From NCBI RefSeq assembly GCF_041410465.1, contig NZ_CP166961.1, positions 682,001 to 746,000 on the forward strand: a stretch of 64,000 bases of DNA, written 5' to 3'. The first letter of the stretch is position 1; each line of letters begins with the position of its first letter. Below are positions 25,301-57,959 of the stretch, piece by piece. The notes under the pieces were generated by a model that worked only from the letters and a program-made list of their open reading frames with translations, was not told where the DNA came from and ran no database searches. Source of the DNA: Thalassotalea sp. 273M-4. Its GTDB lineage: Bacteria > Pseudomonadota > Gammaproteobacteria > Enterobacterales > Alteromonadaceae. The position numbers and the translations under genes were made by a program.

Positions 25301-26932
25301 TTACTGTTCTCCGTTATCGTAGGTTGCTAAAAGCTGATTTTTCGCTTGATTGGCTATTTGAATCGCTTTAATGACAGCTTGCGCTTTTTGTCTGGTTTCA
25401 TCCGCTTCAGCCTGAGGCGTTGAGTCAAAAACAACACCAGCACCTGCTTGGACATGGGCAATGGAGGATTTGACAAAAGCAGACCGAATGACGATACATG
25501 TGTCCATGTCTCCGTCGCCATTTAAATAGCCAACGGCGCCGCCATAACTGCCGCGTCGCTTGCCTTCTATTTTACGAATTAGCTCGGTCGCTTTTACTTT
25601 GGGCGCTCCTGATAGGGTGCCCATATTCATGCAAGCTTGATAAGCATGCAAGGCATCAAGGTCATCAGAAAGGCTACCACACACTCGTGAGACTAAATGC
25701 ATGACATGCGAGTAACGATCAACTTTTAGCAGTTCAGCAACGTGACGAGTCCCTCCTTTTGACACCCGAGCAATGTCATTACGTGCTAAATCGACTAGCA
25801 TCAAATGTTCGGCTTTTTCTTTCTCATCGTTTCGAAGTTCAAGCTCAATTCGACCATCTAAATCTAAATTGTATTCGCCATTGTCTTTAAACCCTCGGCC
25901 TCGGGTGCCGGCGATAGGATAGAGTTCGACTTGACGCGTTTTTTGGGTAAATTTTAATGCCGACTCTGGTGAGGCGCCAAACAACACAAAGTTGTCATCC
26001 TTAATATAAAACATATATGGGCTTGGGTTGGTTTGTTTTAACGCCTGATACGCTTTGATTGGATCGGTGCATGGCAATGAGAAGGTTCTAGAAGGCACAA
26101 CTTGAAAAATATCACCGGCAAGAATGTGCTCTTTTAAAGAATCTACTTGTTGGCAAAATTCGAGGTCAGAAATATCTTCTTTGGCCTTGGGTTGCGTTTC
26201 GGTCAATGACAAGTCTAGCCTTGCAAACAAGTACGGGGTGGCACAAAGGCTTTGTAAATACTCTATTTGTTGCAACAAGCTTTGTTGACATTGCTGCTGA
26301 TTGGAGCCACTAAAGACATTGGCGAGGATTTCGGTTGTTTGTTGTTTATGATCGATAATCAGCAGCGTTTCAGCCAAATAAAACACATAATCAGGACACA
26401 CGTTGTCGCTGTCTTTCACTGTCGGCAGTTCTTCGGCTAATGAAATCAGATCAAAGGCAAATATACCGCCTAAAAATATGGCAAAGGGATGCTCTTCTAT
26501 CGCGTCAAGGGATTGGATTTCCCTTAAAACCTGCATCGGGTTGTTGCTTTTTAAGCGGCTAAGTTCATCCAATGGCTGTGTTTGTTCTGCAAAGCTTAAC
26601 TTTAGAAAGTCATTTGAACTGGCTTTAAAAGTGACATCCTTGTTGAATTTAGGGGCGGCAAAACGCTGCTGTAAGAATGCAATAACAGCTTCACCATTTT
26701 TGCTTTTGGCCGCGATGGAGACCTCTTGACCATGACATTCTATTTTAACGGCAGGGTCGACTAAAATCAGACTTTTTAAAGCCCGTTTATCGCTAATTTC
26801 TGCCGATTCTAATAACAAGGTATTGCTGGTTTTTGCTGACAGGTGTTGAAAAAGAGCCAAAGGATCTGGTTGATAAGGCGCACCAACGCTGTGACTATTA
26901 ACAAAGCCAGGGGTCAATTGAGGCATAAACAT
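25301..26932 (-). CDS. trpE: Anthranilate synthase component I
   Basis: 543 residues. Converts chorismate to anthranilate. The feedback tryptophan site LLLESAEISDK is present near the N-terminus, and the chorismate-binding core contains PYMFYI, GTRGRG, ELRNDEKEKAEHLMLVDLARND, SGAPKVKA and the C-terminal AGAGVVFDSTPQAE. The ATG at 26932 is supported by GAGGG nine bases upstream and overlaps the stop of a 24-codon ORF (TAATG). Transcription should pass through the trpL attenuator at 27171-27294. Confidence 0.97.
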   Translation of the reverse strand: MFMPQLTPGFVNSHSVGAPYQPDPLALFQHLSAKTSNTLLLESAEISDKRALKSLILVDPAVKIECHGQEVSIAAKSKNGEAVIAFLQQRFAAPKFNKDVTFKASSNDFLKLSFAEQTQPLDELSRLKSNNPMQVLREIQSLDAIEEHPFAIFLGGIFAFDLISLAEELPTVKDSDNVCPDYVFYLAETLLIIDHKQQTTEILANVFSGSNQQQCQQSLLQQIEYLQSLCATPYLFARLDLSLTETQPKAKEDISDLEFCQQVDSLKEHILAGDIFQVVPSRTFSLPCTDPIKAYQALKQTNPSPYMFYIKDDNFVLFGASPESALKFTQKTRQVELYPIAGTRGRGFKDNGEYNLDLDGRIELELRNDEKEKAEHLMLVDLARNDIARVSKGGTRHVAELLKVDRYSHVMHLVSRVCGSLSDDLDALHAYQACMNMGTLSGAPKVKATELIRKIEGKRRGSYGGAVGYLNGDGDMDTCIVIRSAFVKSSIAHVQAGAGVVFDSTPQAEADETRQKAQAVIKAIQIANQAKNQLLATYDNGEQ

Positions 26933-27006
26933 TATAATTTTCCCTCAGTATTTATTGGCACTAGGGACATGGTTGTCGTGTTTTGTATGCGAAAATCTGT
27001 GTTCAT
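26932..27006 (-). CDS. Candidate 24-residue leader ORF translationally coupled to trpE
   Basis: The ATG at 27006 has a good ribosome-binding site (CACAGGA, 7 bases from the start). The frame runs 24 codons (MNTDFRIQNTTTMSLV..., ending EGKL) and its TAA shares a base with the trpE ATG (TAATG). It lies after the attenuator, within a 238-base stretch that is absent in the compact E. coli trp leader. It contains no Trp codon. It may control trpE translation by coupling, or encode a small peptide. I do not recognise the sequence; it could also be chance. Confidence 0.5.
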   Translation of the reverse strand: MNTDFRIQNTTTMSLVPINTEGKL

Positions 27007-27170
27007 GGTTTTATCCTGTGAGCGTCTAAGTGATTAACTGGTGCTATTACATTGTTATTACCAGAGTAACCAAGCTTGCAATGTGTTATTACTGTTTTTG
27101 CCTCTAACTTCCTGATTGTAAACGAATTTACGATGTGCTTAGATTGTTTTTCGGTGCCAACTATAAAGCC

Positions 27171-27243
27171 AAAAAACAAAAAACCCGCTTGTGATAAGCG
27201 GGTTTCGATAAATTTTGCCTGTCACAAAGCTCACAACCCGTTA
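27171..27243 (-). terminator. trp operon attenuator and antiterminator segments
   Basis: Minus strand: segment 3 (complement of 27196-27205, AAACCCGCTT) pairs with segment 4 (complement of 27181-27190, AAGCGGGTTT) over 10 bp with a 5-base loop, followed by TTTGTTTTTT: a classical terminator. Segment 2 (CGGGTT, 27240-27235) begins right after the trpL stop and is complementary to AACCCG of segment 3, giving the alternative antiterminator. CATAAC just after the Trp codons (27255-27250) can pair with GTTGTG of segment 2, forming the 1:2 protector hairpin. Confidence 0.93.
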
Positions 27244-27294
27244 TGTTGAGTTATGCCACCACCAAATTGAAATCATGTTTTGAAGTTGAGCCAT
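27241..27294 (-). CDS. trpL: trp operon leader peptide with three consecutive Trp codons
   Basis: 17 residues, MAQLQNMISIWWWHNST, with TGG TGG TGG at codons 11-13 (27264-27256). Ribosome stalling on these codons when charged tRNA-Trp is scarce would free segment 2 to form the antiterminator, as known for E. coli trpL (two Trp codons). A TATAAA hexamer at 27338-27333 (minus) would start transcription about 30 bases before the ATG; no convincing -35 box or TrpR operator was found. It is too short for ordinary gene callers. Confidence 0.93.
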   Translation of the reverse strand: MAQLQNMISIWWWHNST

Positions 27295-56549: not shown

Positions 56550-56634
<85 letters not shown>

Positions 56635-56653
56635 AGGTAGTTCATGCAAAGCA

Positions 56654-56730
56654 TGGTGGCTACGCCCTGATTTGAACAGGGGACCCCATCATTATGAGTG
56701 ATGTGCTCTAACCAGCTGAGCTACGTAGCC
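56654..56730 (-). tRNA. tRNA-Met (elongator, anticodon CAU)
   Basis: 77 bases with encoded CCA, starting GGCTACGTAGCTCAG. Anticodon loop CTCATAA. Close to E. coli metT, so elongator type rather than initiator. Confidence 0.96.
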
Positions 56731-56816
56731 AATATCTTATTAGGATAAGACAAAAAAGCCTTTCGACTTTTACTTCAAAATGGACTTTAAAAAGGATTTA
56801 AAATGAATTTTGAAAG

Positions 56817-56891
56817 TGGCTGGAGTACAAGGATTTGAACCTTGGAATGACGGGATCAAAACCCGCTGCCTTACCGCTTGGCTATACTCCA
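56817..56891 (-). tRNA. tRNA-Gln (anticodon UUG)
   Basis: 75 bases with encoded CCA, starting TGGAGTATAGCCAAGCGG. Anticodon loop TTTTGAT in stem CGGG/CCCG. U1-A72 start is typical of bacterial tRNA-Gln. Confidence 0.96.
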
Positions 56892-56896
56892 GCAAA

Positions 56897-56981
<85 letters not shown>

Positions 56982-57406
56982 AAACCGAGTGGGCATTATA
57001 GTGATGAGAAAATAAAGCGCAAGCATTTTTTTTGCTTTAGTCGCAAAAAAATTGTCGTCAAAATGTAAAACCAAGGTGGCTATATGAAAAAGCGAATAAA
57101 GACAGGCGGATATTAAAGCCAATAAAAAAATATGATTAATCTAGGGGGCGGCGCGTTTTCAAAACATCGGCCAATATTCAAAAGCCTGATAAAAATCGAC
57201 GTATTAGGTTTCGTTCGAGGTGATAGTTATTTAAATGTGCACACAATATTCGGTGCTAAATCATCGGCTCGGCTTAAATTAGCGAAATTAAAACAACTGG
57301 GTAAATGCTGCTAAGCGCTCATTTTAACCAATAAAAATGAAGTAAAATAAAACTGAGAAAGTGAAAGATTATAGGATATAGATTGAAGAAGGTAATAGGA
57401 TAAACA
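56982..57406. other. Spacer between the two tRNA blocks
   Basis: 425 bases. Contains the promoter of the downstream block near 56995-57022. A 60-codon plus-strand frame (57132-57314) has no convincing ribosome-binding site or family and is not called. No terminator is clear for the upstream block. Confidence 0.5.
56995..57022 (-). promoter_or_regulatory. Promoter of the downstream tRNA block
   Basis: Minus strand TTGCGC (57022-57017), 16-base spacer, TATAAT (57000-56995), then GCCCACTCGG, a GC-rich discriminator typical of stringently controlled stable-RNA promoters. Confidence 0.8.
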
Positions 57407-57491
<85 letters not shown>

Positions 57492-57587
57492 AGGTAGTTT
57501 ACTGCCTTAAATAAAGGCAAAAAAAAAGCCATTAGGCTTTTCAATATTCAATTACATTAAACTAAATTGAATTTAATTTGGAAGAAG

Positions 57588-57662
57588 TGGCTGGAGTACA
57601 AGGATTTGAACCTTGGAATGACGGGATCAAAACCCGCTGCCTTACCGCTTGGCTATACTCCA
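57588..57662 (-). tRNA. tRNA-Gln (anticodon UUG)
   Basis: 75 bases with encoded CCA, same as the other Gln copies by eye. Preceded on the transcript by another Gln gene 47 bases away. Confidence 0.96.
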
Positions 57663-57709
57663 ACTTTAAACTTCCAACATTGCAACCAATCTCATTATAA
57701 TAAAGAAAT

Positions 57710-57784
57710 TGGCTGGAGTACAAGGATTTGAACCTTGGAATGACGGGATCAAAACCCGCTGCCTTACCGCTTGGCTATACTCCA
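57710..57784 (-). tRNA. tRNA-Gln (anticodon UUG)
   Basis: 75 bases with encoded CCA, same as the other Gln copies by eye. Confidence 0.96.
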
Positions 57785-57793
57785 ACAATGTTA

Positions 57794-57878
<85 letters not shown>

Positions 57879-57882
57879 GATA

Positions 57883-57959
57883 TGGTGGCTACGCCCTGAT
57901 TTGAACAGGGGACCCCATCATTATGAGTGATGTGCTCTAACCAGCTGAGCTACGTAGCC
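57883..57959 (-). tRNA. tRNA-Met (elongator, anticodon CAU)
   Basis: 77 bases with encoded CCA, same as the other Met copy by eye. First tRNA of the upstream block. Confidence 0.96.

Follow-up and report, generated by a model that had tools for sequence, protein, structure and literature searches.

The window, a stretch of 64,000 nucleotides from Thalassotalea sp. 273M-4, carries on its minus strand a 24-codon open reading frame (MNTDFRIQNTTTMSLVPINTEGKL*, 26932..27006) that lies between the trp attenuator and trpE, and whose stop codon overlaps the start codon of trpE (TAATG). The best reading of this ORF is a coupled leader ORF, a kind already known, which here stands behind a trp attenuator. 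On balance we favour the view that it is a relay leader handing ribosomes to trpE, that its start was probably inherited from an older trpE start, and that the peptide itself is unimportant.

All elements of the leader region are on the minus strand. The trpL leader peptide (MAQLQNMISIWWWHNST*, 27241..27294) contains three adjacent Trp codons (WWW) and is followed by the terminator hairpin of the trp attenuator with a T-run after it (27180..27206). A terminator search between 26900 and 27500 found this one terminator-like hairpin (27206-27180), the mean for shuffled sequences being 0.4. The Rfam model Trp_leader (RF00513) matches at 27267-27175 with 33.2 bits, below its cut-off of 41, and comparison of the trpL peptide with NCBIfam and Pfam gave one sub-threshold TrpLE match only (10.5 bits versus 25). 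One promoter-like site, TTCACT-17-TATAAT, is found at 27453-27425 on the minus strand, which is not above chance (shuffle mean 2.2). The trpE gene, encoding anthranilate synthase component I (25301..26932, Pfam PF00425 and PF04715), has a TrpG-like gene as its next neighbor (25299-24700, minus strand). The original prediction of 238 bases between the attenuator and trpE agrees with the interval as measured from the trp terminator (27170 to 26933). Trp repressor (PF01371) was not found above cut-off in any of the 15 genus genomes, in which there were two weak sub-cut-off matches; the E. coli and B. subtilis controls were positive. In another part of the window nine tRNA genes (56553-57959, minus strand) were noticed, several of them with equal scores, as if they were repeated copies.

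The ORF proved to have the predicted architecture, on the minus strand: an AGGA ribosome site (27014..27017), seven bases, an ATG, and a TAA stop (26934-26932) whose last A is also the first base of the trpE ATG (26932-26930). It was also correctly predicted to contain no Trp codon and thus not to be a second trp attenuator of the usual kind; there is no terminator after the ORF either, and in both respects it differs from RF00513, to which the trpL part looks alike at a score below the cut-off. A second motif, GAGGG (26942..26946), is the ribosome site of trpE and lies inside the 24-codon ORF. Both ribosome-site motifs and the stop-start overlap are present; translation of the ORF, its coupling to trpE and its origin are what we infer. 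In common with translationally coupled leader ORFs, the ORF has the stop/start overlap as well as a ribosome site and start of its own, the latter recognized by motif only. Search of the 24-codon ORF against NCBIfam and Pfam gave no family match.

Translational coupling can operate by reinitiation or by RNA unfolding (PMC12548453, excerpt). The coupled short upstream ORFs described in that excerpt are like the window ORF in being short and co-oriented with the downstream gene, in their TAATG (-1) spacing, in having their own ribosome site and in possibly delivering ribosomes; the window ORF differs in that it sits after a complete trp attenuator and in that its coupling is deduced. The same excerpt offers a parallel within the trp operon, the E. 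coli trpE-trpD junction, which has the same -1 nt stop-start spacing, but there a complete enzyme gene, not a 24-codon ORF, stands upstream. In Salmonella, translation of the short ORF mgtQ ahead of mgtB frees a sequestered downstream ribosome site (PMC8092293, excerpt). According to this source mgtQ has 8 codons and requires ribosome-destabilising Asp and Glu codons, whereas the window ORF implies nothing alike.

RNA folding predicted a hairpin (26924..27007, minus strand) formed by the first codons of the ORF and the trpE start region. In the 96-base fold the paired stretches are 27007-27000/26931-26924 and 26997-26991/26942-26936, and most of the trpE ribosome site is engaged in pairing. 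The z-score of this fold was -1.99, with 10 of 200 shuffles equally stable, and that of a 171-base fold was ordinary (+0.57). When the first codons of the ORF were forced open, the trpE start was unpaired with a mean probability of 0.63 instead of about 0.34 in three segments out of four; in the fourth, of 321 bases, the opening changed nothing. By the 96-base prediction the trpE start and ribosome site would be in part hidden by pairing with the first codons of the ORF. In the mechanism that we favour, ribosomes would load at the AGGA-ATG (27017-27004), translate the 24 codons and, while doing so, melt the hairpin that pairs the first codons with the trpE start and ribosome site. They would then halt at the UAA overlapping the trpE AUG and start trpE there, and the ORF peptide would not be the product that matters. 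Such a mechanism agrees with coupling by RNA unfolding and reinitiation, and with the case of mgtQ and mgtB. Among the three options offered by the original prediction (coupling to trpE, response to another amino acid, small peptide) coupling is the best supported, by the overlap, the ORF's own ribosome site, the predicted hairpin, the short ORFs with a stop on or beside the trpE start in 5 of 14 congeners and the overlaps of a DAHP synthase gene with trpE in the family.

The window's genome (G000; G and L are genome and locus labels) was compared with 14 congeners. When trpE was searched in 97 genomes, the window's among them, 89 had a match with an E value of 1e-100 or better; from the search of named genomes the best 80 of 580 confirmed stretches were used. 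The trpE starts were set by a fixed rule in 103 distinct loci. A TrpE tree of 34 rows placed the window inside the genus clade (99/98) and resolved no sister for it, and a clade uniting the window with G006 and G011 was neither supported nor rejected (p-AU 0.15). A short ORF with its stop on the trpE start or at most 2 bases from it was found in 6 of the 15 genus genomes (G000, G002, G006, G007, G011, G013), of which G007, G011 and G013 were counted through their named copies L004, L005 and L003, identical in this region. Two types can be seen beside the window ORF: 33-codon ORFs ending 1-2 bases before trpE (G002, G007, G013), and ORFs of 22 and 27 codons with an ATGA overlap onto trpE (G006 and G011, respectively). 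The latter length is counted from the ribosome site; extended upstream, the L005 frame has 41 codons. An in-frame indel of 15 bases distinguishes the G006 ORF from that of G011, and the ORFs of L090 and L091 share their first 13 codons exactly. Five congeners (G003, G004, G005, G009, G010) have a second leader peptide, described below, and no ORF overlapping trpE. By the rule used, three others (G001, G008, G012) have neither, and G014 has no overlapping ORF. The original prediction had regarded a frame or start unconserved in close relatives as evidence against the ORF: this is what was found in most congeners, not in all, and none of them is a truly close relative because the TrpE of the nearest one is 71% identical to that of the window.

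Overlap of trpE by an upstream gene also occurs elsewhere in the family. In 12 of the 103 distinct loci (L006, L011, L013, L099 and L107 among them) a long upstream ORF overlaps trpE by ATGA. At L107 the overlapping gene is a DAHP synthase (NF006421, 454.6 bits, cut-off 335), and the other eleven are alike over the stretch compared. Short ORFs without a ribosome-site motif overlap trpE at L031 and L043, and a few more ORFs end slightly further off. Derivation of the window ORF from the C-terminus of the DAHP synthase that overlaps trpE in sister genera was also considered and is unsupported: the alignment p-values were 0.07 for the window, 0.42 for L090 and 0.76 for L091.

The start of the ORF points to its possible origin. 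Its context, AGGN(1-3)AAACCATGA, was found at four places in the 3.37 Mb genome, one of them being the 24-codon ORF, and the same context (AGG-N(1-3)-AAACC-ATGA) opens trpE in G003, G004, G005, G009 and G010, as well as the G006 and G011 ORFs. Because it recurs at five congener trpE starts, the start of the ORF probably descends from a trpE start and was separated from trpE by a change of frame. The change would have occurred in the unconserved 5′ end of trpE, and trpE would now begin at the overlapping downstream ATG. Profiles of the congener start region ranked the ORF start third of 29 window matches (3.2 bits) when made from six sequences and sixth of 28 (2.0 bits) when made from three; with a profile made from L090 and L091 alone it was not in the six best of 15 window matches. 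These matches are weak and not significant.

The same origin is compatible with the ORF being a relic only: the leftover of an older trpE start, perhaps translated, with trpE initiating on its own GAGGG and the ORF having no regulatory effect. Since trpE has this ribosome site, it may not need the ORF, and the start context common to the congener trpE starts, the hardly conserved peptide and the three congeners lacking both the second leader peptide and an overlapping ORF are all in line with a relic. This reading does not explain as readily why ORF stops lie on or beside the trpE start in several genus lineages, nor the predicted burial of the trpE start, and we consider it rather unlikely.

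The peptide encoded by the ORF was aligned with those of congener ORFs and with TrpE N-termini in eight comparisons; all p-values are uncorrected. The likeness was greatest to the ORFs of L091 (p 0.0006; 0.016 with the tail fixed) and L090 (0.005; 0.059 tail fixed), followed by L083 (0.011; 0.042 tail fixed) and the TrpE N-termini of L088 (0.022; 0.051 tail fixed) and L086 (0.030; 0.094 tail fixed). There was no resemblance to L084 (p 0.46), L085 (p 0.28) or the L094 N-terminus. The stop-at-start ORFs of G002, G007 and G013 (L083, L084, L085) thus have little or no likeness to the window ORF. The L091 ORF matched no family in NCBIfam or Pfam.

These likenesses bear on another explanation, which we think improbable, namely that the ORF codes for the N-terminal tail of TrpE, joined to it by a -1 frameshift on GGGAAAA or by one A absent from the assembly. 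GGGAAAA (26938..26944, minus strand) is an in-phase X XXY YYZ heptamer from which a -1 shift would lead exactly into the trpE frame, and such a heptamer occurs within the last 8 codons in only 2 of the 70 window frames of at least 100 codons. The ORF resembles the L088 TrpE tail at the p-values given above, N, T and Q are also abundant in the TrpE tails of several relatives, and L090 has A AAA AAA (A7). L091, however, has no such heptamer near the stop, so the heptamer is not kept across relatives with the same overlap. A plain sequencing error is opposed by the equal relative frame and overlapping stop/start in two separate assemblies, G006 and G011.

A chance ORF that is not translated appears very unlikely. 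We made dinucleotide shuffles of the interval and counted ATG ORFs of at least 20 codons whose stop overlapped, abutted or ended 1 base before the trpE ATG. Such an ORF arose in 2.3% of 20,000 shuffles when no ribosome site was required and in 0.21% when a ribosome-site-like motif was; these percentages are not formal p-values because the feature was picked after being seen. The first number leaves some room for chance, against which stand the second and the shared start context. Least probable of all is a sensing leader or functional micropeptide responding to a signal or an amino acid other than Trp. The second leader peptide of the relatives shows that a leader peptide under strong conservation can occupy the slot, but the window has no such peptide, and its ORF has neither a regulatory codon run nor a second terminator and is little conserved. 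The suggested response to another amino acid is therefore unsupported, and so is a conserved functional peptide, a clearly resembling ORF being present only in G006 and G011 and some congeners having no such ORF.

The second leader peptide of the relatives is encoded by a small ORF ending in ...WF(I/L/M)WWL(Q/L)P(I/L)YAG-stop, which in the loci read precedes trpE or a DAHP synthase-trpE pair (e.g. L107, L088, L018, L037). The pattern WWLxPxYAG-stop was found in 7 of the 15 genus genomes and, in the family, in 80 of 295 sampled genomes from 17 of 52 genera, at one site each; there was no hit to the reversed control pattern among the matches listed for the family genomes. A looser pattern applied to 394 genomes of the order matched nine of them, all in the family and one (G216) chance-like, with none in the 359 genomes of the order outside the family. 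This tryptophan-rich mini-peptide matched no family searched: two forms of it were compared with Pfam and NCBIfam. In the region upstream of trpE at L036 (Pseudoalteromonas sp. T1lg88) we observed by eye a tandem of two WWW leaders resembling trpL, with a terminator-like repeat after each.

We collected 86 copies of the second peptide from distinct loci, covering part of the 80 family sites. The first W is kept in all 86 and the F in 85, both at positions left free in the search pattern. An in-frame ATG is present in every copy and yields a peptide of 20 or 18 residues. The stop is TGA in 82 and TAA in 4, TAG having been excluded by the pattern, and in 84 a C follows it directly. Strict use of TGA was ruled out by the four TAA copies and by L111, an intact copy with TAG. 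The numbers of variable columns at codon positions 1, 2 and 3 were 4, 1 and 9 of 12 each, several codons being fixed by the pattern itself. For this reason the loci were re-examined with trpE as the anchor. WFxWW was present within 1800 bases upstream in 52 of 110 such loci, a number that counts named and unnamed copies of some genomes both; 50 had the full pattern, and the other two were L111, intact with its TAG, and the degenerate copy of G014. The kept residues and the varying third codon positions indicate that the second peptide is translated and that its sequence matters.

The position of the second peptide was examined in a set of 85 copies. In 77 of them a trpL WWW motif is found upstream at a distance of up to 500 bases. 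The gap between the stop and the next long frame is 28-45 bases in 75 copies and 28-39 in 72 of these; in 23 this frame begins with MII(I/V)LK, as DAHP synthase does. Around the peptide no conserved RNA structure was apparent (RNAalifold -3.75 with 43 of the 86 rows; mean z +0.46 for 18 of the 86 sequences against mononucleotide shuffles). Rfam searches of six loci gave Trp_leader in five, one Leu_leader and one RsaJ, all below their cut-offs.

In the window's genome the second-peptide motif had no match, the interval between the trp terminator and trpE included. At 27079-27050 the window reads W-L-L-W-stop where relatives read W-F-I-W-W. This stretch (27050..27079, minus strand) was noticed by eye before being scored; nhmmer with the genus profile gave it 4.1 bits, and 2 of 1000 shuffles were as good. 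The same profile gave 2.1 bits in one of six other congeners without the peptide and no match in five, while G014 scored 22.1 bits. The stretch is possibly a decayed trace of the second peptide, to which these figures weakly point. In G014 (locus L098) WFIWW is kept, the PIYAG end is lost and the frame runs 44 bases into trpE; here the second peptide is apparently caught in decay.

A leader for comparison is the arrest peptide TnaC, which has 24 residues with W12 and Pro24, placing its W 13 codons before the stop (PMC8429421, excerpt). As far as this excerpt goes, the second peptide is like TnaC in being a short leader with a Trp-Phe pair, a mostly UGA stop and a tryptophan context; it is unlike TnaC in that its first W lies 12 codons before the stop, its end is YAG, it has no WFNID motif and it precedes biosynthetic genes. 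A Trp_leader before trpE has been reported in Shewanella, with no second ORF mentioned in the excerpted text (PMC2659441). Descriptions of the 24-codon ORF or of the second peptide were not found in the open-licence literature by title and abstract opening, which does not establish their absence from print.

Ribosome arrest by the second peptide is a conjecture. As a tentative proposal, possible though doubtful, the slot ahead of trpE or the DAHP synthase-trpE pair would in this family be a second, translation-level tryptophan control, in which the nascent peptide of 18-20 residues, ending in WFxWWLxPxYAG-stop, makes ribosomes pause some 33 bases short of the next start and in this way controls access to that start; the window lineage would have lost the peptide and kept the ribosome relay ORF. 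If this is right, the conserved second leader peptide of the relatives would give a new candidate, easy to assay, for control of a biosynthetic operon by a nascent chain. If the apparent decay in the window and G014 is read correctly, the genus would offer intact, decaying and lost stages of the second leader for direct testing. And if the 24-codon ORF is indeed a relay leader, anthranilate synthase in this organism would be set by two serial layers, the attenuation of transcription at trpL and a second leader ORF that delivers ribosomes.
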